Positions 37,287-52,760 of a stretch of 54,837 nucleotides of DNA are shown one piece after another. The stretch is taken from positions 1-54,837 of IMG/VR virus record IMGVR_UViG_3300018059_000014, one strand, 5' to 3'. Position numbers and translations under genes: made by a program. The stretch is from a virus. The number at the start of each line of letters is the position of its first letter. The stretch's first letter is position 1. A model generated the notes under the pieces. It made no database searches, was not told the origin of the DNA, and was given only the letters and a program-made list of their open reading frames with translations.

Positions 37287-38051
37287 ATGCGACAGCTCGG
37301 ATTCGTCTTGCTGTCAGGCGGTATCGATTCGTCTACGTGCCTGGCATACGCAGTAAGGGATTGTGGCAGAGAGAACGTCATAGCAATTTCGATCAACTAC
37401 GGACAACGACACCAGAAGGAACTATCGCAAGCAATGAAGGTCGCTTCGTACCTCTCGGTCTCGCACGAGATCCACGATATTGTCGGGATGCCTAAGGCTG
37501 GCCTTACTGACCATCACGCGGATATCCCCTCAGTATCCTACGCGGAGCTCCGAGGGGTAAGTCCCACATATGTTCCCTTCCGCAATGGTCAACTGATCTC
37601 GCGTATCGCCGGGATCGCAGCCCATCGTGTCGAGCAATTGAACAAGGCGATCGAGGCCGATCCGAGCTCAGAGACTGATGCCGACTGGGAAGGCCGGATC
37701 TACTTCGGAGCGCATGCCGAGGACGCTGCCGGAGATGCGTATCCCGACTGTAGATTGGACTTCGTCGGCGCGATGGGAGCAGCCGTGTACATCGGGACGT
37801 ACCACCAAGTGCGTATCGCGGCGCCTCTGATCCAGATGTTCAAGGATGAGATCGTCTTAGCAGGCGAGAAACTGGGTGTGCCCTGGCATCTCACGTGGTC
37901 CTGCTACAAAGGGGAGGAACTCCACTGTGGCATCTGTCCCACTTGTAGGGCTCGTAAGGCTGGTTTCCTCAAGGCTGGTGTCAAAGATCCAACCATCTAC
38001 AAGTCTGACAAGGTTGGAGTTCCTGGCCTTATCGACGACATCCCATTCTAA
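37287..38051 (+). CDS. queC: 7-cyano-7-deazaguanine (preQ0) synthase
   Basis: A 254-residue QueC. ATG 37287 follows CCGGAG. It converts 7-carboxy-7-deazaguanine to preQ0 with ATP and ammonia. The PP-loop LLSGGIDSSTCLAYA is near residues 8-22; SINYGQRH follows; FRNGQLIS binds substrate or nucleotide; the zinc-binding Cys set is WSCYKGEELHCGICPTCRAR near 210-230. No glutamine amidotransferase domain (Gat-QueC) is fused to it. It is first in a run queC-queD-queE-folE with spacing of 2-26 bases, evidently one operon. Confidence 0.94.
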   Translation: MRQLGFVLLSGGIDSSTCLAYAVRDCGRENVIAISINYGQRHQKELSQAMKVASYLSVSHEIHDIVGMPKAGLTDHHADIPSVSYAELRGVSPTYVPFRNGQLISRIAGIAAHRVEQLNKAIEADPSSETDADWEGRIYFGAHAEDAAGDAYPDCRLDFVGAMGAAVYIGTYHQVRIAAPLIQMFKDEIVLAGEKLGVPWHLTWSCYKGEELHCGICPTCRARKAGFLKAGVKDPTIYKSDKVGVPGLIDDIPF

Positions 38052-38061
38052 GGAGAGGCCC

Positions 38062-38532
38062 ATGATTACCTGCCATCGGTATCACGACATCTCCTGTGGC
38101 CATCGTGTCTATGGTCACGAATCGAAGTGTGCTCACCTTCATGGGCACAACTATCGAGTGCACTTCACGTGTGCAGCTCCTGAGCTTGACCAGGTAGGAA
38201 GAGTAATCGACTTCTCGGTCATGAAGAGTCGCCTGTGTATGTGGCTCGAGGATGTGTGGGATCACCACTTCCTCGTCTGGCAAGAAGACCCCTGGTCGAA
38301 CGATCTCGGGTTGCTTGATCCTACTGTCGTCGTACTACCGTTCAATCCGACGGCGGAGAACATGGCAGACTTTCTTTGCCGGGTCATGGGACCCAAGCTC
38401 CTCGAAGGAACGGGAGTCGACCTTATTAAGGTCACTGTGGAAGAGACTAGAAAGTGTTCGGCATCAGCCGATACTATGTCGAACATACTCATCGAAGAGA
38501 TGGTCAAACGGCGAATAGCCAAAGGGGGCTAA
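38062..38532 (+). CDS. queD: 6-carboxy-5,6,7,8-tetrahydropterin synthase
   Basis: A 156-residue QueD with AGGAGAGG ahead of ATG 38062. It turns dihydroneopterin triphosphate into 6-carboxytetrahydropterin. The catalytic Cys and zinc His lie in ESKCAHLHGHNYRVHF (residues ~21-36), with a further zinc His in DISCGHRVYG; WDHHFLVWQ and PTAENMADF are the other family motifs, and VTVEET is the late catalytic strand. Length is normal for QueD. It is followed by queE after one base. Confidence 0.94.
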   Translation: MITCHRYHDISCGHRVYGHESKCAHLHGHNYRVHFTCAAPELDQVGRVIDFSVMKSRLCMWLEDVWDHHFLVWQEDPWSNDLGLLDPTVVVLPFNPTAENMADFLCRVMGPKLLEGTGVDLIKVTVEETRKCSASADTMSNILIEEMVKRRIAKGG

Positions 38533-38533
38533 C

Positions 38534-39355
38534 ATGTTCGGAACGAACCCTCTGAGTAGTCCCATCGAAGGAGATGGGATGTGGCTCGAAGTGCAGGACA
38601 TCTTCTCCACGATCCAAGGTGAAGGGCCCTTTGCTGGGAAGCCTGCTATCTTCCTTCGGCTGGCTGGATGTAACCTTCGGTGTCACTTTTGCGACACGGA
38701 CTTCGAGAGTCGCCGTACTACGATGGCTTTGGGTGAAATCCGGGTAAAAGTCGAGATGCTGGCTACCCGCGATAAGATCGGAAAGACAAATCTTGTTGTA
38801 GTAACTGGTGGTGAGCCTCTCCTCCAGAACATTGGGCCCCTGTGCTCAGTACTCGACAAGAGTGGGTTTCACGTCCAGTTTGAGACTGCTGGTACAGTCT
38901 GGGTTGAACATTTAGAGGACTATATCGTTCCAGGTCGTATCTCTCTGGTTTGCTCGCCCAAGACTCCAAAGGTTCATCCCCAGATTGCACGATGGTGTAA
39001 GCACTGGAAGTACCTCATTCGTGCGGGCGAAGTATCTCTGCTGGATGGATTACCAATTATGTCGACTCAGATCCCAGGTAAGGAGGCTCAGATCTTTCGG
39101 CCGCCTAGTCCGGAAGATGACACGGTGTGGCTCCAACCTTGCGAGGCGTACAAGGTGGGATACCGCATCAAAGGGACTCTAGGTACAAAGGCTGTATCTG
39201 GTCCTTTAGTACCACAACTCGAAGACCAAGAAGTGACGTCATCTGTCCGAGACGAAGAGGCTACTCAGCGCAACATCCGGCTCTGCGCTGAGCTCGCCAT
39301 GAAGTTCAACTACCGAGTTAGTCTGCAGCTCCACAAGCTGCTACACCTGCCATGA
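38534..39355 (+). CDS. queE: 7-carboxy-7-deazaguanine synthase (radical SAM)
   Basis: A 273-residue radical SAM enzyme that contracts 6-carboxytetrahydropterin to 7-carboxy-7-deazaguanine. The SAM-cluster motif is RLAGCNLRCHFCDTDFE near residues 43-59 (CxxxCxxC). VQDIFSTIQGEGPFAGKPAI upstream of it and VVVTGGEPLLQ are family hallmarks. It is somewhat longer than many QueE proteins, mainly from a region (residues ~185-240) before the C-terminal helix. It overlaps the reading frame start of folE. Confidence 0.93.
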   Translation: MFGTNPLSSPIEGDGMWLEVQDIFSTIQGEGPFAGKPAIFLRLAGCNLRCHFCDTDFESRRTTMALGEIRVKVEMLATRDKIGKTNLVVVTGGEPLLQNIGPLCSVLDKSGFHVQFETAGTVWVEHLEDYIVPGRISLVCSPKTPKVHPQIARWCKHWKYLIRAGEVSLLDGLPIMSTQIPGKEAQIFRPPSPEDDTVWLQPCEAYKVGYRIKGTLGTKAVSGPLVPQLEDQEVTSSVRDEEATQRNIRLCAELAMKFNYRVSLQLHKLLHLP

Positions 39356-39381
39356 CAATAAAACCACAGAGGAAACAGGCA

Positions 39382-39984
39382 ATGGCCCGTAAGAAGACTA
39401 CCAACCCGATCCAGGACGCTGCTAATCTCATAGCAGCTGTTCTGGAGACCCTAGGATTCGACCTGACAGACGAGAACTTCGATGGAACACCTGAGCGATT
39501 CGTGCGCTACCTCTTGGAGTACAAGAAGCCCTACGACGTTAACCGTGTCCTTAAGGTGGACTTCACATCGACTCATATCGACAACGGATACAAGGGGGTC
39601 TTGGTTCAGTCGGGAATCCCCTTCAGGACGATCTGCCCACATCATCTTCTCCCCGTTCTCGGGGTGTGCCACATTGGGTATATTCCTTCCACTCGGGTAG
39701 TCGGACTCTCAAAGCTGACTCGCATTGTCGAAGCTGTTGGTCATGAGTTTCCAAGGATGCAGGAGACCTGTACGGATCTCATTGCGGACGTGCTAGAGAA
39801 GCATCTGGGAGCCAAAGGAGTGATGGTCGTTATCAAGGCAGATCACTCCTGTATGACTGGTCGTGGAGTAAAGGTACACTCGACCCCGACCTCAACTTCG
39901 ACAGTCAGGGGGCTCTTTCGTGACGTCCCTGCTGCAAGAGAGGAGTTCTTCGAGCTAGTCCGTATGGGGTCGAGGTCAAATTAA
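39382..39984 (+). CDS. folE: GTP cyclohydrolase I
   Basis: A 200-residue FolE. ATG 39382 has AGAGGA at 39368-39373; an upstream in-frame ATG at 39352 overlaps the queE stop and would add ten residues. It opens GTP to dihydroneopterin triphosphate, the first step of the preQ0 pathway. Motifs: RTICPHHLLPVLGVCHIGYI (zinc Cys and His), VVGLSKLTRIVEAV, and ADHSCMTGRGV. It completes the set needed from GTP to preQ0. The gene ends 87 bases before dpdA. Confidence 0.94.
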   Translation: MARKKTTNPIQDAANLIAAVLETLGFDLTDENFDGTPERFVRYLLEYKKPYDVNRVLKVDFTSTHIDNGYKGVLVQSGIPFRTICPHHLLPVLGVCHIGYIPSTRVVGLSKLTRIVEAVGHEFPRMQETCTDLIADVLEKHLGAKGVMVVIKADHSCMTGRGVKVHSTPTSTSTVRGLFRDVPAAREEFFELVRMGSRSN

Positions 39985-39999
39985 ATGATGGTACTCCAC

Positions 40000-40029
40000 T
40001 AGATACCATAGCTGGGACTGCTGTATAAT
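40000..40029 (+). promoter_or_regulatory. Predicted promoter for DpdA and polymerase genes
   Basis: TATAAT at 40024-40029 followed by AGGGTATAAG. At an 18-base spacer the -35 is TAGATA (40000-40005), a poor match, unlike the TTGnnn of its relatives. ATGGTA (39988-39993) and TACCAT (40004-40009) form an inverted repeat overlapping this -35, a possible operator. The promoter may need an activator or be under repression. Confidence 0.6.
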
Positions 40030-40071
40030 AGGGTATAAGCTCGAATCCAATTCACCTGAGGAGGCCCGCAA

Positions 40072-40902
40072 ATGGCCCGCTTTGCTCCTGTAGTGCCAAT
40101 CCAGATCGCCCGTGAGCTACAGAAGGGGCCCAAGGACTATCTCGGCCGTTATCATCTCTTGCTGGCACATGATATCCTCGAGAAGCCGGATGAGTACCGT
40201 GAGGTCTACAACAAAGTGCGTGAGGACTACGAGGATTCGTTCATCATCCTGGACAACTCGATCGTCGAGCTTGGGCACCCACTCGATCTGGATGATCTTC
40301 TGGCCGCAGCAAATATCGTCCCTCCTGACTGCATTGTGATCCCAGATGCGATGGGTGATGGAGCCGGAACAAGGGAGATGGCCAAAACGTTCGTACGCGA
40401 GTATTGCCGATACTTTCAGTCCAAACAGCAGTTCGCCGACGAGGTACCTGCCTTGCTTGGTGTACTGCAAGGATCGAATGTCGATGACGCGATGGAGACC
40501 ACCGCGGTGATGTATTCCCTCCCGATGGTGGACTACGTATCTGTTCCTAGGATCTTCGCCAACGAGAATGGGTCTCGCATGCCAGTGTTGCACGAACTCA
40601 TCCGGCGCGACACCTACAAGCTCTTCAAAGGGGTTCACCTCCTCGGGTTCTCGAACAATATCCTCGATGATGTGGCTTGCGCCCGGATGCAGATCGTCAA
40701 AGGGATCGACTCCGCAGTTCCGATTCGTGCGGGTTTGGCTACGATGGAAGTCCGCGACGCTATGTGGGCCTACAACTGGTCCAGCGAGTTAGGACCAAGA
40801 GGAAAGTTCTGGGACATCCCGATAGAAGAGGTTCTTCAGCCTGAGAGACTTGCCTGTATCCGGGAAAATCTCGATCAATATCGGAGGTGGATCCAGGAGT
40901 AG
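40072..40902 (+). CDS. dpdA: DNA 7-deazaguanine transglycosylase (DpdA-like)
   Basis: A 276-residue member of the phage DpdA branch of tRNA-guanine transglycosylases, which swaps guanine in DNA for a 7-deazaguanine such as preQ0. Recognisable motifs in order: RYHLLLAHDIL, FIILDNSIVELG, IVIPDAMGDG, LLGVLQGSN, YVSVPRIF, GVHLLGFSNNILDD and VKGIDSAVPIRAG. The last motif, with Asp and Ser, is characteristic of phage DpdA proteins. It lacks the zinc-binding tail of bacterial Tgt. It lies just after the preQ0 operon but behind its own promoter-like site, and is followed eight bases later by the polymerase gene. Confidence 0.88.
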   Translation: MARFAPVVPIQIARELQKGPKDYLGRYHLLLAHDILEKPDEYREVYNKVREDYEDSFIILDNSIVELGHPLDLDDLLAAANIVPPDCIVIPDAMGDGAGTREMAKTFVREYCRYFQSKQQFADEVPALLGVLQGSNVDDAMETTAVMYSLPMVDYVSVPRIFANENGSRMPVLHELIRRDTYKLFKGVHLLGFSNNILDDVACARMQIVKGIDSAVPIRAGLATMEVRDAMWAYNWSSELGPRGKFWDIPIEEVLQPERLACIRENLDQYRRWIQE

Positions 40903-40910
40903 GAGTAGCT

Positions 40911-43364
40911 ATGTTGTTCAAGCGACTCCTCCCTACTCCTGATAAGAAGTTCTCGCCTGAGCCTTGTCCGATGTGTCCCCTCAGTGGTAGTCGACGGGTA
41001 GGTGCTCGTGGGACAATAGATTCTCCCCTTGTCATCATTTTGGAGGCTCCAGGGACTGAGGAGTTGAAGTATGGTGCTCCTATTTGTGGTCCATCTGGGG
41101 ATCTCCTAGACAAAACTGTTCCAGAAGGGTATGACTTTGATGACGCATATATCATCAATGCCATGCAGTGTCGCCCTCCTAAGACGGACGATACACTTCG
41201 GGATAAGGACTTCAAGGCTAGAGCCTGTGCTGCTTGTCGCTCAAGAGTTCTCGCGCAGGTCTTTGCTTATCCTCGTCGGTGTGTACTGGCGATGGGTGCC
41301 TACTCCAACATTTCTCTCACGGGCGACTATGGCTATAAGATCACGCAGAAACGTGGGCAGCTCTATACCATTAAGGATCCTGATTCCGGCCAAGAAGCTG
41401 TTGTCGTACCAACAGTTCATCCTGCGTTCCTTCTTAGAGGATCCGGCAATCCTAAGGTCTTCAAGGATGATATCACTCTGGCAATGTCGATTGCCTACGA
41501 TAACCATCCCGTGCAAGTCAGGACGTATAAGTGGGAAGAGCCGCATAATATTGTCCTCCGCGAACTCGAGGATCTCGTGGCGTACACACGCAAAGTTAAG
41601 GGCCTACTTGAAAAGGGTAAGGATGAGGGGGTAGTTGTAGCAGCGGACATTGAGACCTCCGGCTTCAATCCGAAGGTTGACTATATTCTTGGGATCGGGT
41701 TCTACTTTGATGATCCGTCGGATACGGCAGCTATCGTTCCCAAGGAAGCCCTTCTGGATCAAGCCTATTGCTATTACCTCCGTCGACTGCTGTTGATACC
41801 CGGAGTCCGCTGGGTATGGCAGTTCGGGAAGTTCGACGAGAAGTTCTTGCACGAAGAGAAGTTGCTTCGCCCAGAGGAGAGTATCAACACGGAAGATACT
41901 GGGTTGTTGTCCTATGCCCTCTCCGAGGCTACGAAGGATCACGACCTAGACGAGCAAGCTAAGAACGACCTCGGCATTCCCGAGCACAAAGGGATGCTCA
42001 AGAAGTGGGCCCCGAAGAAGACCGATTCATATGCTGCAGTACCAGAGCCTGTTCTCTTCGACTACCTCGCCAAGGACCTAAAGAAGACTCTTCTCGTCTA
42101 TATGCACAAACGTCCCCAGGTTAAGGCAGATGCAAACCTGGAGAAGCTCTATACTCGAACCTTGATACCAGCTAGCCATCTCCTGGCACAGATTGAAGGT
42201 TACGGTATTGAGGTCGACTGGGAGTACGTAAAGCTCAACCGTTTGGAACTAGAAGCCGAGCTTGTTGGGCTTGAGGTAAAGCTCCAGGAGTTAGTCGGAC
42301 GTCATATAAACCCCAATTCGCCAGATGAAGTCTCTACCCTGCTATATGACGAGTATGGACTGAAGATCAAGGGGAGGAGACCACAAGATACCACCAAGGA
42401 AACGTTCGAGAAGCTCCCCGCACATCCAGCGGTAAAGCTCATTAGACAGTATCGTTCCACGACTAAGATGCTCTCGACCTATGTGAAAGGGGTCGAGAAG
42501 CACGCCGTCGGGAATCGCATTCACACCTCGTTTAAGCTCCATGCTACGACTACAGGTCGATTGTCGTCGTCTGAACCGAACATCCAAAATATCCCTCGTG
42601 AAGGTCGTTACCGGCGGATGTATTGTGCCCGTCCAGGTTATATTCTACTGGAGGCCGACTATAACTCCGCCGAACTACGAATGCTCGCCGCCCTCTCAGG
42701 AGACGAGTTCCTAACCGGAGTATTCCTTGACGACAAACGCAATCTGCACGATGAAGTCTCCGTCGCGATGTATGGTCAAGGGTTCACCGTTGACCAGCGA
42801 ATACGTGCTAAGGCAATTAACTTCGGTATCCCGTACGGTCGAGAAGCGTTCTCAATCGCAGAAGAGTTTGATATACCTACTCCTGAGGCTCAGAGGCTTA
42901 TCGACGCATGGTTCGAGCGTGCGCCTCAGGCTGCCCAATTCCTCAAGAGGTGCCGGCGTGCTCCGCTTGAAGGGCGTACCCTCATTACGGTATTTGGTCG
43001 CAAACGTCGACCGGGAGTAGTATCCGCCGAACGCATGCATGGGCTGCAGAACGAGTTCGCCAACTTCCATGAGCAGAGTCCAATCTCGGACTTCACCTTG
43101 CACACAGGGATGGAAGCTCTACCGCTCATCAAGCAGTATGACGCACACTTTGTCAATCTTGTCCACGACTCGACTGTGGCCGAGGTGCCAAATGACCCTT
43201 CAGTCATATGTAAAGTGGCGGACATCATCAAAGAGGTGCAGGAAGAAGTACCAACGAGGTGGATTACTACTCCGATCCGTTTCAAGGTGGATTTGAAGGT
43301 TGGCACTCACTGGGGACAGGCTCAGAGCTATGAGAAGTGGCTCGAAAGGGTGAGTGCGTCTTAA
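40911..43364 (+). CDS. Uracil-DNA glycosylase / family A DNA polymerase fusion
   Basis: An 817-residue protein; ATG 40911 with AGGAG upstream is preferred to GTG 40887. Residues 1-190 are a family 4-type UDG: LEAPGTEE near 44-51, VVVPTVHPAFLLR near 165, and Cys19, Cys22, Cys87, Cys106 spaced as for its iron-sulphur cluster. The 3'-5' exonuclease begins at VVVAADIETSGFNP near 240. The polymerase has TGRLSSSEPNIQNIP, motif A LEADYNSAELRMLAAL, motif B RIRAKAINFGIPYG and motif C LVHDSTVAEVP (HDS rather than HDE). It should replicate the phage genome. Similar fusions are known in SPO1-like phages. Confidence 0.92.
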   Translation: MLFKRLLPTPDKKFSPEPCPMCPLSGSRRVGARGTIDSPLVIILEAPGTEELKYGAPICGPSGDLLDKTVPEGYDFDDAYIINAMQCRPPKTDDTLRDKDFKARACAACRSRVLAQVFAYPRRCVLAMGAYSNISLTGDYGYKITQKRGQLYTIKDPDSGQEAVVVPTVHPAFLLRGSGNPKVFKDDITLAMSIAYDNHPVQVRTYKWEEPHNIVLRELEDLVAYTRKVKGLLEKGKDEGVVVAADIETSGFNPKVDYILGIGFYFDDPSDTAAIVPKEALLDQAYCYYLRRLLLIPGVRWVWQFGKFDEKFLHEEKLLRPEESINTEDTGLLSYALSEATKDHDLDEQAKNDLGIPEHKGMLKKWAPKKTDSYAAVPEPVLFDYLAKDLKKTLLVYMHKRPQVKADANLEKLYTRTLIPASHLLAQIEGYGIEVDWEYVKLNRLELEAELVGLEVKLQELVGRHINPNSPDEVSTLLYDEYGLKIKGRRPQDTTKETFEKLPAHPAVKLIRQYRSTTKMLSTYVKGVEKHAVGNRIHTSFKLHATTTGRLSSSEPNIQNIPREGRYRRMYCARPGYILLEADYNSAELRMLAALSGDEFLTGVFLDDKRNLHDEVSVAMYGQGFTVDQRIRAKAINFGIPYGREAFSIAEEFDIPTPEAQRLIDAWFERAPQAAQFLKRCRRAPLEGRTLITVFGRKRRPGVVSAERMHGLQNEFANFHEQSPISDFTLHTGMEALPLIKQYDAHFVNLVHDSTVAEVPNDPSVICKVADIIKEVQEEVPTRWITTPIRFKVDLKVGTHWGQAQSYEKWLERVSAS

Positions 43365-45339: not shown

Positions 45340-45771
45340 ATGCGCACCAAGATTCTCGTTCCAGGACACCTTTATAGGGTGCCGTATCTTGAGCACTCTG
45401 GATATCTGCTTGTTCGGTTCATCCGTCGATCGTCGGATATGGTGTCTCATCCACTCGAGTGGTCTGGTATCAACACTCAGGAACTCATCCGAGTATTGAT
45501 CGATAGGACGGAGTACCTCAATGCTCTAGGACCATGCGAAGAGTCCGAGAACGCTATCTACTGGCTTACAATGGCCTTGTACGAGTATGAAGCTAGAGCC
45601 TGGAGGCGGAAGCAGCAGAAGTTGAACAAACGGGCCGACGCTCAGGCAGATGTCGATAGGGTTAACTCTACAAGGGAGTTCTATCGAGATGTACCTTTCA
45701 CACCGCAGGAGATTCTTGACATGCGTGTAGGTCCCGATGGACATGTAATCATAGAGGGAAACCATGGGTAA
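45340..45771 (+). CDS. Hypothetical protein, 143 aa
   Basis: A 143-residue protein from ATG 45340. The N-terminal third is beta-like (ILVPGHLYRVPYLEHSGYLL, with a LVRFIRRS strand). The middle is helical (EYLNALGPCEESENAIYWLT, ALYEYEARAWRRKQQKLNKR). The C terminus, FTPQEILDMRVGPDGHVIIE, is a further small module. No family recognised. It overlaps the next gene by eight bases, at the left border of the GC-rich mosaic block. Confidence 0.68.
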   Translation: MRTKILVPGHLYRVPYLEHSGYLLVRFIRRSSDMVSHPLEWSGINTQELIRVLIDRTEYLNALGPCEESENAIYWLTMALYEYEARAWRRKQQKLNKRADAQADVDRVNSTREFYRDVPFTPQEILDMRVGPDGHVIIEGNHG

Positions 45772-46387
45772 TCTGCGTGGTAAGGTAGTGGAGATATATC
45801 GCACGCCAACCATGATCGGCGTGTTGGTGAACGGTACAGCATACGACCCAGCAACCTTAATCGGTGCGCTTGCCATTGAACTGCATGCGCTGCGGTCTGC
45901 CCCCGCGAACGCTCGGGCGGTGGCAGAGAAGTGCGCGTGGCTGTGCGGCGAACTTGACGGCGGGGAGCCTGACCGCGACGAAGCAATCCGCGAGTGCATG
46001 GCGACGATCCGCGCCTACGCCGCCACCCTGCCGGACGCGCCGCAGCCTGCGACACAGCGGAGCAAGGCCGCGCACCACGCTGCGCATGGGCTGACTGCGG
46101 CCATGATCGACGCTCACTACCCAATCAGCCAGCACCAGCCGGACGAGTGCGAAATGTGCCACGCGCTCCATGAAATTGCGAAGGAGGCCATCGAAGCGTC
46201 CCTCTCGGAGACCGCGCCCAGCGGTACGGCGAAGGTGGAGGGGTGGAAGCTGGTGCGGGATTTCCCCACCGCCGAGCAACAGATCGCAGGAGTGAAGGCG
46301 GCAGGCGGAACACTTGCTGAGGGCTTTATCGTCGGCATCTACCGCGCCATGCTCGCCGTCGCACCTTTGCCAAAGGAAAGCGCATGA
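45764..46387 (+). CDS. Mosaic protein with GC-rich body, 207 aa
   Basis: A 207-residue protein from ATG 45764. The first ~30 residues (GKVVEIYRTPTMIGVLVNGT) have base use like the surrounding phage. From about 45850 the DNA turns strongly GC-rich and the protein reads VAEKCAWLCGELDGG, RDEAIRECMATIRAYAATLP, then ECMCHAL-like Cys/His and a final GFIVGIYRAMLAVAP. The YRAMLAVAP ending recurs in small proteins of phages of GC-rich hosts. The gene appears to be a junction between native and acquired sequence. Function unknown. Confidence 0.65.
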   Translation: MGNLRGKVVEIYRTPTMIGVLVNGTAYDPATLIGALAIELHALRSAPANARAVAEKCAWLCGELDGGEPDRDEAIRECMATIRAYAATLPDAPQPATQRSKAAHHAAHGLTAAMIDAHYPISQHQPDECEMCHALHEIAKEAIEASLSETAPSGTAKVEGWKLVRDFPTAEQQIAGVKAAGGTLAEGFIVGIYRAMLAVAPLPKESA

Positions 46388-46581
46388 AAGCTCTTACTTG
46401 GAATGACTTGGCTAATCTCTATGATGCCAAACATAGTGGACGGCCCGCAAGAACTTTGCCAATGGACAAAGTATTTGAGTGGGCTGAGAAACAAACGGAT
46501 AAGTTCATTGTATCTGAAGATGGCTCAATCAGTTTGTTACCTGCGCCTTCGCAGTCTGGCAACTCGCGCGAAGGAGGCTGA
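46384..46581 (+). CDS. Small hypothetical protein in mosaic block, 65 aa
   Basis: A 65-residue protein with AAAGGA ahead of ATG 46384, overlapping the previous stop (ATGA). Unlike its flanks it is AT-rich at third positions. Text: LTWNDLANLYDAKHSG, then TLPMDKVFEWAEKQTDKFIV and EDGSISLLPA. It resembles small DUF-type phage proteins with an NLYD...W motif. Function unknown. The different base use marks it as a separate piece of the mosaic. Confidence 0.65.
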   Translation: MKALTWNDLANLYDAKHSGRPARTLPMDKVFEWAEKQTDKFIVSEDGSISLLPAPSQSGNSREGG

Positions 46582-46582
46582 C

Positions 46583-46774
46583 GTGGCACCAGGACCAGGA
46601 TACGGCAGTTGCCTCCGCGTGGTGGAAACCAAGCCTGGCATGGGAACAGGTGAATCTCGATACCGCACGGCAGACGGTCGCTGGTGGCGTGAATGTCCGG
46701 CGACCGTGACCGACAGTACGCTCGGCCAAGAAGTCCGCTACCTGCACGGAGATCACCTATGCAATCGCCCATGA
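46583..46774 (+). CDS. Small hypothetical protein, 63 aa
   Basis: A 63-residue protein from GTG 46583 with a strong AAGGAGG five bases upstream. The same frame is open to 46403 but the ribosome site fixes the start here. Text: PGYGSCLRVVETKPGMGTGE then YRTADGRWWRECPATVTDS. No family recognised. It is in the GC-rich block and overlaps the next gene by 16 bases. Confidence 0.6.
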   Translation: MAPGPGYGSCLRVVETKPGMGTGESRYRTADGRWWRECPATVTDSTLGQEVRYLHGDHLCNRP

Positions 46775-47526
46775 AACCTTCGCGCGAGTCCTCCAACAGC
46801 GAATCCCCCGAGCGCAGGCTGCTGCGGGTGGAGGATGCGTTGCGCCATATTCTTTGGATCAAGGAATGCGGCATCGACGGCAAGGATGAGCATGGCGTCT
46901 TTCGCAACTGGCCGGAGTCCGAACGCGACGCCATGTACCGCATAGCTAAAGAGGCTCTCCTCGCGCAGCCGGAGGGACAGAACAATGCAGCGGGGCAGGC
47001 AGGACGGGCCGAGGAAGGCTCACTGAACATTAAAGGCGTCGGCAAAGGTGAGCGCCTGCCTGTCCCCGCTGCGCCCGGAGAGAAGGACGGCGAAGGGCTG
47101 GTGGCACGGCTGCGGAAGAAATGCAGCCCAACCCCTAACCAACCTTTGCTTGACGGAATCGTGATGCTCATCAACAAGATGGGCGACGAAGCAGCCGACC
47201 GCATCGAGCAACTTGAGCGGGAGTTGGCGGAGGCGAACGAGCAGCGAGTGATGTGGCACCAGCGATGGAGCGAACACGAAGCTGCGCTCTCGCTGCGGTC
47301 CGCAAGAGGGGGAGCCCAAGAAGGTTTGCACTTATGGGTCCCGGCGGAGATATGCCGCGGAGACGAGCTCTGTTTGGCGAATATGCCCCGGGATCGGTAC
47401 GTTTACGTCGCCCGAGGTTCTGAGATGTTCCGCTTTACGCTACCTGAGTTGCCGCCTCCTGATCCTACTGTAGGAACGGGCACGAAGAGTATCGACCGTA
47501 TGTTACCTAACAAGGGGGCGAAGTGA
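46759..47526 (+). CDS. Chimeric protein, GC-rich N-part and phage-like C-part
   Basis: A 255-residue protein; ATG 46759 has GGAG seven bases upstream. Residues 1-~190 are GC-rich in codon use and helical: RLLRVEDALRHILWIKECG, RIAKEALLAQPEG, then DRIEQLERELAEANEQRVMW (coiled coil). From ~47320 both base use and protein character change: HLWVPAEICRGDELCLANMP, RDRYVYVARGSEMFRF and a Pro-rich end look native to this phage. The gene marks the right border of the mosaic block. Function unknown. Confidence 0.62.
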   Translation: MQSPMKPSRESSNSESPERRLLRVEDALRHILWIKECGIDGKDEHGVFRNWPESERDAMYRIAKEALLAQPEGQNNAAGQAGRAEEGSLNIKGVGKGERLPVPAAPGEKDGEGLVARLRKKCSPTPNQPLLDGIVMLINKMGDEAADRIEQLERELAEANEQRVMWHQRWSEHEAALSLRSARGGAQEGLHLWVPAEICRGDELCLANMPRDRYVYVARGSEMFRFTLPELPPPDPTVGTGTKSIDRMLPNKGAK

Positions 47527-47714
47527 AAGAGACATGTACTACGTGTGGGTTCCTACGTACGGATCCAAAGGGTATGGTTTGTATCCGTTTTCCGCCGACA
47601 CTTGTGATAATGCGCACCCCGGAGGGGAAGCCCGCAGCCCAAGGTGGCTTTCCGCCTACAATGCCCGAGTGGGTCTGTGGTGAGCACAAACCCGTTATTA
47701 TTGTACCGCGCTAG
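47523..47714 (+). CDS. Small Cys-rich, zinc-ribbon-like protein
   Basis: A 63-residue protein from GTG 47523, overlapping the previous stop. Cys residues in KETCTTCGFL, KGMVCIRFPP and EWVCGEHK give a CxxC...C...C set likely to bind one zinc. The pattern RFPPTLVIM and FPPTMPEWVCGEH is common in small proteins of many phages. Function unknown. Confidence 0.72.
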   Translation: MKETCTTCGFLRTDPKGMVCIRFPPTLVIMRTPEGKPAAQGGFPPTMPEWVCGEHKPVIIVPR

Positions 47715-47734
47715 TTGACTATAGGAGAAGTAAT

Positions 47735-48046
47735 ATGGACATCTATGAATTTTCCAAGCGCGTCCACCAGACTGCCTGCGATCATGGCTTCTGGGATGGA
47801 CAGGCAAACAAGGCTGAGAAGATCGCACTGATGCACTCCGAGCTCGCCGAGTGCCTCGAAGGGGTACGCAAGCCGGGTCCTGACAAGCATTGCCCCGAGT
47901 TCACACAGGAAACCGTAGAACTGGCGGATGCTGTCATCCGCATCCTCGACTACGTGTATCACTACGGCCTTCGTCTCGAGGAAGCGTTGGTCGCAAAGGC
48001 TACGTACAATGAGTCGAGGCCATACAAGCATGGGAAAGCGTTCTAG
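47735..48046 (+). CDS. MazG-like nucleotide pyrophosphohydrolase
   Basis: A 103-residue all-alpha NTP pyrophosphohydrolase. Metal-binding acidic residues lie in EKIALMHSELAECLEGVRKP (the ExxE of helix 1-2) and VELADAVIRILDYVYHYG (ExxD of the later helix); the end YNESRPYKHGKAF is characteristic. MazG-type enzymes hydrolyse dNTPs or (p)ppGpp; phage versions may adjust precursor pools or the stringent response. Length is normal for a single-domain MazG. Confidence 0.88.
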   Translation: MDIYEFSKRVHQTACDHGFWDGQANKAEKIALMHSELAECLEGVRKPGPDKHCPEFTQETVELADAVIRILDYVYHYGLRLEEALVAKATYNESRPYKHGKAF

Positions 48047-48068
48047 TCGGGCGACCATCATTTGACAC

Positions 48069-48098
48069 TTGATGACCCATTTAGTTTGCCTGTATAAT
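48069..48098 (+). promoter_or_regulatory. Predicted promoter for the RNR/ThyX block
   Basis: TTGATG at 48069-48074, an 18-base spacer and TATAAT at 48093-48098. TTGACA lies seven bases upstream (48062), and GACCATCATTTGAC at 48053-48066 also precedes the promoter at 7104. The gene downstream starts at 48127. Confidence 0.75.
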
Positions 48099-48126
48099 TG
48101 AATCAGGCTTGAGAAAGGAGTTCACC

Positions 48127-48561
48127 ATGAGCAAGCCCGCTGTTCCTGTAGGCTCGCCAGTCCATGTGTTCGCAGTCGTAGCACCCGGAGCCGATCCCGC
48201 CTCTGTTCTGCTCGTCCCACACCTCATCAAGCTCGGCTGGAAGTTCGGCGATGTTCCCTTGGGGGATCTTATTGACCAAGTCCGGATGGTTGATGACCAT
48301 CTGAAGGCCCTCGAGAAATGGGTCGAAGGGGCAAGAGGGGTTCTGAAGCAGAAGCTTCCTGTACCGGCTCAAGCAGGCGAAGAGACCGTGACGCCAGGAA
48401 GACTCTTCGAGGCGCACTACTCCAAATCGACCCGAACGGACATCGATCGCGACAAGGTCAAGACGTATTTCGGTGCGGAGTACCCGAACTACTGCAAGAC
48501 CTCGGAGATTTTCACCCTCAAGATCGTACCGATCGCTCAGTCACCTGGTGTGGCTGGGTAA
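48127..48561 (+). CDS. Hypothetical protein, 144 aa
   Basis: A 144-residue protein with AAAGGAG ahead of ATG 48127, first gene behind the promoter at 48069. Text: VHVFAVVAPGADPASVLLVP, then GDLIDQVRMVDDHLKALEKW (helix), GARGVLKQKLPVPAQAGEET, and DRDKVKTYFGAEYPNYCKTS. The C-terminal KTYFG...Y.KTSE..TLKI pattern is found in other phage proteins of unknown role. No function proposed. Confidence 0.75.
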   Translation: MSKPAVPVGSPVHVFAVVAPGADPASVLLVPHLIKLGWKFGDVPLGDLIDQVRMVDDHLKALEKWVEGARGVLKQKLPVPAQAGEETVTPGRLFEAHYSKSTRTDIDRDKVKTYFGAEYPNYCKTSEIFTLKIVPIAQSPGVAG

Positions 48562-48567
48562 CTCTCA

Positions 48568-48666
48568 ATGGGCCCCCTACGCGGAATGAGCTACGGAGTC
48601 GCTGTGACGGCCTTAGGCCAAGCGTTCGTCACACTCGTCGGTAGCGGCGGCTGGGGGCCCTCCTAA
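48568..48666 (+). CDS. Possible tiny hydrophobic peptide, 32 aa
   Basis: A frame of 32 codons from ATG 48568, reading MGPLRGMSYGVAVTALGQAF and ending GSGGWGPS. The only ribosome site is a weak GGGTAA. It fills the gap before the next gene and its GGGCCCCC/GGGGGCCC ends could also pair as RNA. Reported because nothing else explains this gap; low confidence. Confidence 0.25.
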   Translation: MGPLRGMSYGVAVTALGQAFVTLVGSGGWGPS

Positions 48667-49070: not shown

Positions 49071-49183
49071 CCGACGCAGAGAAGGTAGCAGCGATCAAGC
49101 AGCTCCTCCAGGACTATATCGACGGTTCGATCGAGACGACCCTCGATCTGGTTCGTGCCATCAGAGAGGTCATCATCAAATGA
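49067..49183 (+). CDS. Small helical protein, 38 aa
   Basis: A 38-codon frame from ATG 49067 with GGAG upstream, linked by ATGA overlaps to both neighbours. It reads TDAEKVAAIKQLLQDYIDGS then ETTLDLVRAIREVIIK, two clean amphipathic helices. The tight coupling to the RNR gene and the ribosome site support it as real. No family recognised. Confidence 0.65.
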   Translation: MTDAEKVAAIKQLLQDYIDGSIETTLDLVRAIREVIIK

Positions 49184-51510
49184 ATGCCAACCTGAAGGAA
49201 TCTGGCTTTGACAGTATTCAAGGCTTCCGCAAGATCGAGCAGGTTCGAAAGCGGGATGGAACTTTAGTCCCCTACGATTTCCACAAGATCGAGACCGCTA
49301 TCTGCAAGGCGATGTACTCAGCTGTGGAAGCTCCGGATCCTGACAACGATTCGACGTTTGTCGCCCGGAACGTTCAATCGCAGTTCCAACGAGCCGCTAC
49401 TCTGATGAAGGCGGTGAGTGTACCGGAAGTTGAGGCCATCCAGGATGCCATCGAGAGGGAGCTAATGCTCCAAGGCTTCACGGCAACTGCCAAGCACTTT
49501 ATTTTGTACCGCGACGAGCGAGCTAGACTGCGAGCAGTAGAGACTGAGATCTCTCCGGAAGTCCGGAGTCTCGTCGAAAGTAGTCGGAAGTACTTCCGTA
49601 ATCCCTTAGCGGAGTTCGTCTACTATCGGACGTACAGCCGATGGATCGAGCAGAAGAGTCGTCGTGAGACCTGGATCGAGACCGTCGAGCGCTACATGGC
49701 CTTCATGCGTTCTGAGATTGGTGGGACGCTGAGTGACAACGAGTACGACGAGATTTTCCAGGCTATCCTTCGTATGGAGGTGATGCCCTCCATGCGTCTT
49801 ATGTGGTCTGCTGGAGTCGCTGCTGAGAAGACCAATGTCAGCGCTTTCAACTGTGCCTTCATTGCTCCGACGTGTTTCCAGGACTTTGCTGAGATCCTCT
49901 ACGTTCTCGCCTGCGGAACTGGTGTTGGCTTCTCCGTTGAAAGCCGGAGTGTACAACAGTTACCGATGGTAGAGTTCCAGAAGTTGGAGCGGATTCTGCT
50001 CTACAAGATCGAGGACAGCAAAGAGGGCTGGGCAACAGCCCTCTCAATAGGAATGCGTACTTGGTACGGCGGTGATGATGTTCACTTCGACTATTCCCTG
50101 TTGCGCCCCGAGGGGGCTCGTCTTAGGACGATGGGTGGTCGGAGCTCCGGACCTAAGCCCCTTATGGATCTGTTGCAGTTTGTTCGTTCCAAGATCCTGA
50201 ATCGCGAAGGTCGACGGCTCACCAATCTTGACGTCCACGACATCATTTGTAAGATCGGTGACTGCATTGTTGCTGGTGGCGTCCGGCGCTCGGCACTTAT
50301 TTCCCTTAGCGACTTAGACGATACGGACATGAAGTTGGCCAAGCAAGGCCACTTCTTCATCTCCAACAACCAACGTCAGTTAGCCAACAACTCTGCCGTC
50401 TATCTCTCTAAGCCCTCTGCCGGGGAGTTTCTTCGGGAGTGGATGGCGTTAGTCGAAAGTAGGTCAGGGGAGAGGGGAATCTTCAATCGTGGTGGCCTCT
50501 TCGATCAAATTCCTCAGCGGCGGAGAGCAAACTGGCTTCAGTATGCCCATGCCAACAACGCGGCGGTTCTTTCCCAAATCGGAACGAATCCCTGCGGTGA
50601 GATCAATCTCCTCTCGAAGCAGTTCTGCAATCTAACCGAGGTAGTATGCCGTGCAGACGATGATTTTGCGTCGCTCCTCCGAAAGGCTCGTATAGCTACT
50701 ATCCTCGGGACTTACCAGTCGATGCTCACCAATTACCCCTACCTCTCCGAGGAGTGGAAGGAGAACTGTGAGAGGGAGCGTCTGCTAGGAGTCTCGCTCA
50801 CCGGCCAGTGGGATTGCGAAGTCGTACGAAACTCTAGCGTACTAGAGGGTCTACGTGAAGCCATTGTTGAGACCAACATCGAGTTTGCCAAGAAGTTCGG
50901 TATTAACCCTTCGACTGCGGTTACATGCGTCAAGCCCTCTGGCACTGTGTCTCAACTAGTTGATGCCGCTCCTGGGATGCATCCCCGCTACGCTCCTTAC
51001 TACATTCGGCGAGTTCGTATTTCCTCCTCTGATCCCTTGTTCCGTATGCTCAAGGATCAGGGTCTCCCCTTCTTCCCAGATGTTGGACAGACTTTTGATT
51101 CGGCTTCGACATTCGTGTTCGAGTTTCCGGTAAAGTCGCCTGAGGATCACGACAAGGTCTACAATGGTACGCTCAATGCATTGGATCAGCTTGAGTACTG
51201 GAAGAAGGTCAAGAAGTATTATACTGAGCATAACCCCTCCGTTACTATCTCCGTAGGCGAGAACGAGTGGGTCGATGTTGGCCACTGGGTGTGGCAGAAC
51301 TGGGAGATCGTCGGAGGATTGAGCTTTCTACCCAGAGAAGACCATGTCTACCAGCTCGCGCCCTATGAAGCAATCGACGAAGCTCGGTACACAGAGATGT
51401 GCAAGAAGTTCGAGGGGGTGGATTACAGCCGGATCGTGACATACGAGAAGGAAGACAACACCGAGGGATCTAAGGAGTTCGCCTGCGTTTCAGGAGCATG
51501 CGAAATCTAG
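49180..51510 (+). CDS. nrdJ: Adenosylcobalamin-dependent ribonucleotide reductase (class II)
   Basis: A 776-residue RNR, monomeric RTPR type. An N-terminal ATP-cone-like part (EQVRKRDGTLVPYDFHKIET to ~100) precedes the barrel. FNCAFIAPT near 223 and NPCGEINLLSKQFCN near 469 hold the active-site Cys and Glu; VKPSGTVSQLVDAAPGMHPR is the usual loop; the C-terminal CVSGACEI has the redox Cys pair that passes electrons. It makes dNTPs from rNTPs with B12, so the host must supply adenosylcobalamin. No intein is evident. No separate small subunit is present or needed. Confidence 0.92.
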   Translation: MNANLKESGFDSIQGFRKIEQVRKRDGTLVPYDFHKIETAICKAMYSAVEAPDPDNDSTFVARNVQSQFQRAATLMKAVSVPEVEAIQDAIERELMLQGFTATAKHFILYRDERARLRAVETEISPEVRSLVESSRKYFRNPLAEFVYYRTYSRWIEQKSRRETWIETVERYMAFMRSEIGGTLSDNEYDEIFQAILRMEVMPSMRLMWSAGVAAEKTNVSAFNCAFIAPTCFQDFAEILYVLACGTGVGFSVESRSVQQLPMVEFQKLERILLYKIEDSKEGWATALSIGMRTWYGGDDVHFDYSLLRPEGARLRTMGGRSSGPKPLMDLLQFVRSKILNREGRRLTNLDVHDIICKIGDCIVAGGVRRSALISLSDLDDTDMKLAKQGHFFISNNQRQLANNSAVYLSKPSAGEFLREWMALVESRSGERGIFNRGGLFDQIPQRRRANWLQYAHANNAAVLSQIGTNPCGEINLLSKQFCNLTEVVCRADDDFASLLRKARIATILGTYQSMLTNYPYLSEEWKENCERERLLGVSLTGQWDCEVVRNSSVLEGLREAIVETNIEFAKKFGINPSTAVTCVKPSGTVSQLVDAAPGMHPRYAPYYIRRVRISSSDPLFRMLKDQGLPFFPDVGQTFDSASTFVFEFPVKSPEDHDKVYNGTLNALDQLEYWKKVKKYYTEHNPSVTISVGENEWVDVGHWVWQNWEIVGGLSFLPREDHVYQLAPYEAIDEARYTEMCKKFEGVDYSRIVTYEKEDNTEGSKEFACVSGACEI

Positions 51511-51647
51511 TCGACGGGTTGTATCGCGTTACGACGCGGTACTTGTGTGCTGGGTTCGTCGTTGAGAACGGACGCATTATTAGGTGTGCCCCGATCCTTC
51601 GGAGGCGACTGGAGTACTGGGTAACTATAGCAAGGAGAGTGGGATGA
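51498..51647 (+). CDS. Small phage protein, 49 aa
   Basis: A 49-residue frame from ATG 51498, overlapping the RNR gene by 13 bases. It reads DGLYRVTTRYLCAGFVVENG followed by RIIRCAPILRRRLEYW. The pattern YRVTTxxxxAGFVVENGxxxxCAPIL is common in small phage proteins, so this is judged real. GGAG lies very close to the ATG, suggesting coupling to RNR translation. Function unknown. Confidence 0.75.
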   Translation: MRNLVDGLYRVTTRYLCAGFVVENGRIIRCAPILRRRLEYWVTIARRVG

Positions 51648-51946
51648 GAGCGAGACCAAAGAAGCTACCAAGGATAGTGGATATTGCTCAGCGGAAGAAG
51701 TTCCAGGAGGCCCGTGACGCGATGTACCGTCAGGCTCCACTGGAGGCCTTCTTCAAGGGTATCCAAGCATTCATTCCTACCTTGGGGAAGAAGCCTGTTA
51801 TTACTGCCGAAGAGGCAGTTCTGCAGGTGAAGAGAGTCCTCGAGGAGAAACCTCATCCTTGGAGGAGTCACCAGAAGTACTGGAGGCGTGCCGCGAACCA
51901 GAGTCGATACGGGAGGCGCAATGGACGATTCTATCAGAGTGCTTGA
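51644..51946 (+). CDS. Basic hypothetical protein, 100 aa
   Basis: A 100-residue protein; ATG 51644 has AAGGAG seven bases upstream, while the same frame upstream has no good start. It is strongly basic: RARPKKLPRIVDIAQRKKFQ at the N terminus and WRSHQKYWRRAANQSRYGRR near the C terminus, with a helical middle. Possibly nucleic-acid binding. It overlaps the thyX gene by 26 bases. Confidence 0.7.
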   Translation: MRARPKKLPRIVDIAQRKKFQEARDAMYRQAPLEAFFKGIQAFIPTLGKKPVITAEEAVLQVKRVLEEKPHPWRSHQKYWRRAANQSRYGRRNGRFYQSA

Positions 51947-52760
51947 TCACGGGTACGTTCGGCTCATCGAGACTTGGGGCTCGGACGAGGTAATCATCGA
52001 GGCTGCTCGGATGTCGACCCAGAAGGGCTTTCAGGGATGGGGTCCACGATGGAGATGTACTCTGTGCTTGTGCTTGTGGCGGAAGAACCCCGACGAGTCG
52101 TGGTCTCTATACGACCAAAACCAGAAGTCGTGTAAGCAGTGTGACAACAGTGACGATTTCCTGTTTGTCGTCAAGGAAGAAGCTGGGGACGAGAAGCTGT
52201 TGGCGTATCTCTACAAGCGCAAGCACATGACCCCATTCGAGATGGCTGGTGCGATCTTCGAGATCAAAGCGCCGATCATGGTGTTTCGGGAGTGGCATCG
52301 CCATCGGACGCAGAGCTACAACGAGATGTCCGCTCGCTACATTCCTTTGCCGAACGAGAACTATGTGCCAGATCGGAAGGATGTCATGGAGAGATCCCAG
52401 GCCGCCTATGACTCCAAGAACAAGCAGGCTCGCTCGGCTTCGGATCGTGTTGTTACTGAAGGGGAGACTCTGCAGTGGCTACACGATCTAGACAGCTACT
52501 ACGAGAGGGGACAGCGCCTCTACGAGGAGGCCCTCCAACTAGGGATTCCTAAGGAGCTCGCCCGTTTGCCAGTTACCGTTGGGAGGTTCTCTGTGATGAG
52601 GGCCTCCGCGAACTTACGCAACTGGCTACAGTTCCTCGAGCTCCGGACAGCTCTTCAGGCCCAGAAGGAGATCCGGTTGTATGCCGAATCTGTTTGCTCT
52701 GTGCTCGAGCTGGACTTCCCCCGAACGATGGCACTCTTTGGGAGGTCACATGGTTCCTGA
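51921..52760 (+). CDS. thyX: Flavin-dependent thymidylate synthase with zinc-ribbon-like insert
   Basis: A 279-residue ThyX; ATG 51921 has GGGAGG five bases upstream. The ThyX signature is WHRHRTQSYNEMSARY (residues ~125-140; RHRxxSxNExSxRY). FE-like HMTPFEMAGAIFEIKAP precedes it, and LPVTVGRFSVMRASANLRNW is the C-terminal part. It makes dTMP from dUMP with FAD and methylene-tetrahydrofolate. Between EAARMSTQKGFQGWG and GDEKLLAYLYKRK is an extra segment of ~45 residues carrying CTLC and CKQC pairs, a likely zinc ribbon absent from typical ThyX. Confidence 0.9.
   Translation: MDDSIRVLDHGYVRLIETWGSDEVIIEAARMSTQKGFQGWGPRWRCTLCLCLWRKNPDESWSLYDQNQKSCKQCDNSDDFLFVVKEEAGDEKLLAYLYKRKHMTPFEMAGAIFEIKAPIMVFREWHRHRTQSYNEMSARYIPLPNENYVPDRKDVMERSQAAYDSKNKQARSASDRVVTEGETLQWLHDLDSYYERGQRLYEEALQLGIPKELARLPVTVGRFSVMRASANLRNWLQFLELRTALQAQKEIRLYAESVCSVLELDFPRTMALFGRSHGS

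Follow-up and report, generated by a model that had tools for sequence, protein, structure and literature searches.

The viral record IMGVR_UViG_3300018059_000014, an IMG/VR fragment of 54,837 nt from an uncultured bacteriophage that was analysed as a whole and is called the window below, carries five consecutive genes on the + strand at positions 37287-40902, namely queC, queD, queE, folE and a gene for a 276-aa protein, with a DNA polymerase A gene coming next (Table 1). Together they make up a putative phage DNA-modification operon based on 7-cyano-7-deazaguanine (preQ0). A sequence-only reading of this stretch had described the four biosynthesis genes as a tight run with a transglycosylase next to them, and had taken the run for a complete pathway from GTP to preQ0. 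Both statements are borne out, as all five genes lie where they had been placed, in frames that are open without internal stops, and the four enzymes are recognised by Pfam and PHROGs with their catalytic motifs intact.

Table 1. Genes of the putative operon and the polymerase gene that follows it; positions refer to the window.
Gene	Predicted product	Length (aa)	Position	Strand	Support
queC	7-cyano-7-deazaguanine (preQ0) synthase	254	37287..38051	+	PF06508, E 4.8e-51
queD	6-carboxytetrahydropterin synthase	156	38062..38532	+	PTPS, E 2.7e-25; phrog_2389, E 4.8e-51
queE	radical-SAM 7-carboxy-7-deazaguanine synthase	273	38534..39355	+	phrog_2076, E 1.4e-47; Radical_SAM, E 5.7e-10
folE	GTP cyclohydrolase I	210	39352..39984	+	GTP_cyclohydroI, E 1.3e-47; overlaps the queE stop by 4 bases
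	DpdA-type DNA-guanine transglycosylase	276	40072..40902	+	fold, motifs, remote profiles, synteny
polA	DNA polymerase A with N-terminal uracil-DNA-glycosylase-like domain		40911..43364	+	DNA_pol_A, E 8.7e-65; UDG (PF03167), E 8.2e-13

The preQ0 pathway genes

Within the que run neighbouring genes either overlap by 4 bases or are separated by no more than 10, and 87 bases lie ahead of the 276-aa gene. Purine-rich ribosome-binding sites precede queC, queD (GGAG) and the 276-aa gene (GAGGAGG), while that of queE sits at an alternative start, so that this gene may begin at Met16 (38579, preceded by GGAG). With Pfam and PHROGs matches down to E values of 1e-51 and intact motifs, we regard the predicted identities of the four pathway enzymes as certain. 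QueD keeps the cysteine of CAHLHGH and the further conserved histidine, FolE its zinc ligands in CPHH and a second cysteine (CMTGRG), and the CxxxCxxC cluster motif of radical SAM enzymes is present in QueE as CNLRCHFC. QueE shares 45.6% identity with its counterpart in Edwardsiella phage vB_EpM_ZHS and does not reach the equivalog cut-offs of NCBIfam; QueC obtains 150.0 bits against the NCBIfam model TIGR00364 with its cut-off of 150.3.

QueC keeps SGGIDS, YGQRHQKE, VPFRN and YPDC, the canonical cluster 1 signature (SGGxDS, YxQxHxxE, VPxRN, YPDC) defined in PMC13329287. The residues essential in the E. coli enzyme, i.e. the tyrosine of YxQxHxxE, the arginine of VPxRN, the tyrosine of YPDC and the tyrosine after the first zinc cysteine (PMC13329287), are present at all four positions. 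The zinc stretch CYKGEELHCGICPTC holds four cysteines and the tyrosine after the first one in a C(x)7CxxCxxC spacing, compared with the canonical C(x)8CxxCxxC; a first spacer of 7 was found in nearly all related phage QueCs aligned. The protein has neither a fused glutaminase (Gat) domain nor a glutaminase extension.

The 276-aa transglycosylase and its family

Single-sequence searches with the 276-aa protein gave no match in Pfam, PHROGs, NCBIfam or PDB sequences. For its AlphaFold2 model (pLDDT 93.1, pTM 0.90), all 50 matches listed by Foldseek against the PDB are tRNA-guanine transglycosylases (TGTs), the best with E 1.9e-7, a probability of 1.00 and a TM score (query) of 0.62. A structural search of BFVD gave a weak match to the Vibrio phage nt-1 protein R9TGF0 (E 4.5e-5), and the best PDB match by sequence profile was 7ui4, annotated 'DNA-guanine transglycosylase', a weak hit (E 0.017) over the HLLG...IDS stretch. 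Residues invariant in an alignment of 33 family members include H33, D61, N62, S63, E66, L67, G68, G134, R169, H189, L190, G192 and D213. The CxCxxC...H zinc site of tRNA TGTs is not present; the four cysteines of the protein are scattered over positions 87, 112, 203 and 262.

Aligned by hhalign to a DpdA1 profile of ten sequences (CAjan, 9g, a Rosebush-group phage and others), the family profile gave E 2.7e-4 at a probability of 42%, whereas the controls, six column-shuffled profiles and one reversed profile, gave E 0.28-0.81. D61, D92, H189 and D213 of the family stand in register with D63, D105, H187 and D206, all invariant in DpdA1. Pairwise hhalign against CAjan DpdA1 alone is weak and not significant, though the motifs are again in register. 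The Pfam TGT model PF01702 matched neither the 276-aa protein at E <= 1 nor its counterparts in related phages; as it also fails on the validated CAjan DpdA1, this null result is uninformative and no argument against a DpdA. Modelled fold, motifs, remote profiles and synteny all place the protein among the transglycosylases that make up the TGT/DpdA superfamily.

Brevundimonas phages MaInes and StAshley, Weizmannia phage Youna2 and Bacillus phages BSP7 and BSTP encode homologues, and Campylobacter phage CP220 gave a weak match; the MaInes homologue used as a single-protein query against viral contigs found nothing. The iterated family profile retrieves the transglycosylase of Flavobacterium phage immuto (gp206, annotated DpdA) with E 9.9e-71 and CP220 gp056 with E 2e-51, while the family hidden Markov model has no match at E <= 1 in CAjan, nt-1 or HVTV-1. 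Sequence profiles thus recognise the protein neither as DpdA1 nor as DpdA2, and profile-profile comparison alone links it to DpdA1. In the family tree, midpoint-rooted for drawing only, it falls into an 18-row clade with MaInes (SH-aLRT 99), CP220 and immuto into a second and Youna2 and BSP7 into a third clade. The label 'DpdA-like' given by the sequence-only reading stands for the DNA-guanine-transglycosylase type, to which fold, motifs, profiles and synteny point, but not for a DpdA1 or DpdA2 that sequence profiles would recognise; phylogenetically, profiles place the protein in the lineage of immuto DpdA and CP220 gp056, and the tree sets its clade apart from both. Cui et al. reportedly named a DpdA3 subfamily in 2023, tied to complete guanine replacement, and are said to have defined DpdA4 there as well; we take CP220 gp056 to belong, probably, to that DpdA3 lineage.

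A scan of IMG/VR yielded at least 534 confirmed relatives of the transglycosylase, compared with 3 contigs in the same type of scan, run with a slightly stricter pattern, over 84,980 prokaryote species genomes. Members of the family are thus carried almost exclusively by phages, and the family is in essence a viral one. Its gene order, with que genes followed by the transglycosylase and DNA polymerase A, recurs in the Brevundimonas, Weizmannia and Bacillus isolates and in dozens of IMG/VR contigs and is therefore not a matter of chance; in the MaInes, Youna2 and BSP7 records the homologue comes after queC, queD and queE (and folE where it is local) and before the polymerase gene. All four que genes lie within about 6 kb in 21 of 49 long loci, and a related polymerase was found in 27 of the 49. 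QueC is encoded in each of the eight family-member genomes tested, including three in which the adjacent que set is incomplete (L029, L049 and L058, on contigs G004, G005 and G006). The polymerase reading frame opens at GTG 40887, its start probably being the conserved ATG 40911. In the clade of the window, polymerase A (PolA) is joined to a domain like uracil-DNA glycosylase (UDG); this fusion is present in 36 related loci and in MaInes, and absent from Youna2, BSP7 and immuto.

Proposed function and alternatives

We consider it likely that these five genes are an operon with which the phage modifies its own DNA, first making preQ0 and then inserting it as a protection from restriction. FolE, QueD, QueE and QueC would turn GTP into preQ0 as a free base, which the transglycosylase would exchange for guanine in double-stranded phage DNA by TGT-type chemistry. 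In this reaction D213 would attack C1' of the target deoxyguanosine to form a covalent intermediate, guanine would leave and preQ0 enter, with D61 binding or deprotonating the base. With the preQ0 deoxynucleoside (dPreQ0) in place, the genome may then escape those restriction enzymes of the host that depend on N7 of guanine or on its major-groove face. Replacing guanine in this way is an established means by which phages evade restriction. The proposal is built on the gene set, the intact catalytic motifs, the TGT fold of the predicted model, the synteny and the lack of both QueF and ArcS in the window and in an overlapping record. That DNA and not tRNA is the substrate, that preQ0 is the final base and that restriction is affected, we infer by analogy from work on phages CAjan, Rosebush and 9g (PMC6884629).

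Six-base palindromes are slightly under-represented in the window, with a mean z of -0.63 in a test whose double counting inflates z by about 1.4. The lowest is AAGCTT (z -3.4, 12 against 31 expected, with both strands counted and palindromes thus double-counted). This mild deficit could at most be a weak hint of persisting restriction pressure.

Several points weigh against the proposal. The 276-aa protein has diverged so far that no curated family model covers it, and for this phage and its immediate clade the modification is predicted from sequence only. Besides, gene content by itself does not establish dPreQ0: CP220 also encodes QueC and a transglycosylase from the same superfamily, yet is reported to carry the deoxynucleoside of 7-amido-7-deazaguanine (ADG), dADG. 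Host enzymes or unrecognised phage proteins could also tailor the base, and several open reading frames (ORFs) at 45340-48641 and in an extra 13.6 kb described below are without family match. The prediction of dPreQ0 in the sequence-only reading accordingly holds as the best guess, given a canonical QueC and no QueF or ArcS, and falls short of proof; dPreQ0 remains the likeliest predicted product.

A bolder version of the proposal would make the clade of the window its own DNA-guanine transglycosylase subfamily, tied to UDG-PolA, that replaces most or all guanines by preQ0 throughout the genome. It draws on the analogy with complete replacement in CP220, where 100% of the guanines are given as dADG in a passage of PMC8306585 that cites earlier work, as opposed to about 30% in CAjan and Rosebush, and we hold it to be rather unlikely.

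The same operon might instead insert ADG, as in the Campylobacter phages CP220 and CPt10, either because QueC releases the amide intermediate or because the transglycosylase prefers ADG. The CP220 guanines just mentioned speak for this improbable outcome, as do the shared superfamily of gp056 and the presence of QueC in CP220. However, gp056 and the window protein belong to separate, well-supported clades, and the QueC of CP220 is non-canonical, with YGSNH in place of YxQxH and FPDC in place of YPDC, two sites at which the window QueC is canonical. The Y131F variant of E. coli QueC is only partly active (PMC13329287), and the QueC of immuto has lost its zinc cysteines entirely; the non-canonical motifs of CP220 and the missing cysteines of immuto might each explain why end products differ. 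With YGQRH and YPDC intact, unlike in CP220, completion to preQ0 would thus be favoured here, which provides a residue-level hypothesis for dADG in CP220 and dPreQ0 in others.

If preQ0 is inserted, a host enzyme or an unrecognised phage protein might afterwards convert it to dPreQ1, deoxyarchaeosine (dG+) or another base. The ORFs of no known family would leave room for this, and Cui et al. reportedly described in 2023 that derivatives in some phages are made by enzymes with unusual folds. The sequence-only reading had noted that QueF, Gat-QueC and ArcS are missing and had cautioned that genes outside the window could alter the picture. A record from another sample, IMGVR_UViG_3300011427_000002 (68,611 bp), matches the window at 99.97-100% wherever the two were compared, and its ends overlap by about 123 bp; the near-identity and the overlapping ends make a circularly permuted genome of about 68.5 kb likely. 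The roughly 13.65 kb missing from the window were recovered from this record (locus L024:175-13822) and hold mostly small unannotatable genes, the ten main ORFs showing no tailoring-enzyme match in Pfam. Neither QueF nor ArcS was found in the window or in the near-identical record, Gat-QueC is likewise missing from the window and the added stretch, and neither of these two holds a homologue of immuto QueF, the immuto formyltransferase, HVTV-1 QueF or the CAjan preQ0 transporter. The earlier caution is thereby largely removed, except for unrecognisable proteins and host enzymes. Moreover, the region at 46693-48641, where the genes of no known family past the DNA ligase gene lie, shares just two DNA stretches of less than 50 bases with the close relatives L017 and L018; it is variable and probably outside the modification operon. 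We regard further tailoring as decidedly improbable.

It is very unlikely that the genes aid translation by increasing queuosine or preQ0 in the tRNA of the host, with the transglycosylase acting on tRNA. For phages that have the pathway and lack DpdA, such a role has been proposed (PMC6884629), and the fold is that of a tRNA-guanine transglycosylase. However, a phage without QueF cannot make preQ1, the substrate of bacterial TGT, and the protein, short at 276 aa, has no cysteine cluster like that of the zinc site in tRNA TGTs, keeps the residues invariant in DpdA1 and is encoded at a fixed place beside a DNA polymerase gene. We assign a negligible probability to a modified dGTP made by the phage and incorporated by its polymerase, a route once proposed for Campylobacter phages (PMC6884629) that the fixed adjacency to DNA polymerase A and an encoded ribonucleotide reductase would suit, but that is unnecessary with a transglycosylase of intact catalytic residues at hand and for which no dedicated kinase or glycosylase was seen.

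As to the remaining genome, the ribonucleotide reductase and a ThyX-type thymidylate synthase are encoded at 49180-52760, after the replication genes, and no tRNA genes were found in the window or the extra stretch. A megablast comparison of 25 kb with known phages gave zero matches, so there is no close sequenced relative outside IMG/VR.

Comparison with known systems

The closest isolated relatives are vB_BpoS-MaInes and StAshley, whose circular genomes of about 69 kb encode a homologue that is 33% identical over its length. They share queC-queD-queE upstream and the UDG-PolA fusion downstream, but have folE about 7 kb downstream and the homologue annotated as 'hypothetical protein'. The paper on their isolation does not mention 7-deazaguanine chemistry; it does report that all 17 contigs of a winter 'ssDNA virome' on Brevundimonas aligned to these two dsDNA phages (PMC10070969). 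Odd library behaviour of this kind is one effect that heavily modified DNA can have. More generally, a large phage family annotated as 'hypothetical protein' carries the DpdA fold and its catalytic residues, so that many phages seemingly equipped with the preQ0 pathway but without an inserting enzyme probably have one, for which the culturable MaInes and StAshley would be test cases.

The transglycosylases of immuto and CP220 have the same length and the motifs DNSxxELG, QG, HLLG and D(S/T), but differ by an identity of only about 24% and by their separate clades with high support. Immuto, a phage with the preQ0 pathway, further differs in its more loosely grouped que genes and in having QueF. 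The DpdA2 of nt-1 has a similar TGT-like fold; DpdA2 was reported to be without the conserved histidine (PMC6884629), which is kept here as H189.

In CAjan and Rosebush the minimal set of FolE, QueD, QueE, QueC and DpdA gave dPreQ0 at about 30% of G, and loss of dpdA abolished dPreQ0 in CAjan (PMC6884629). The operon described here comprises the same five functions, likewise without amidotransferase or QueF, and the catalytic residues of DpdA1 have their counterparts in it, whereas the gene order is different and the partner polymerase is PolA instead of PolB plus clamp. The kind of system is therefore known, and what is new is a member whose transglycosylase belongs to a lineage overlooked by public family models.

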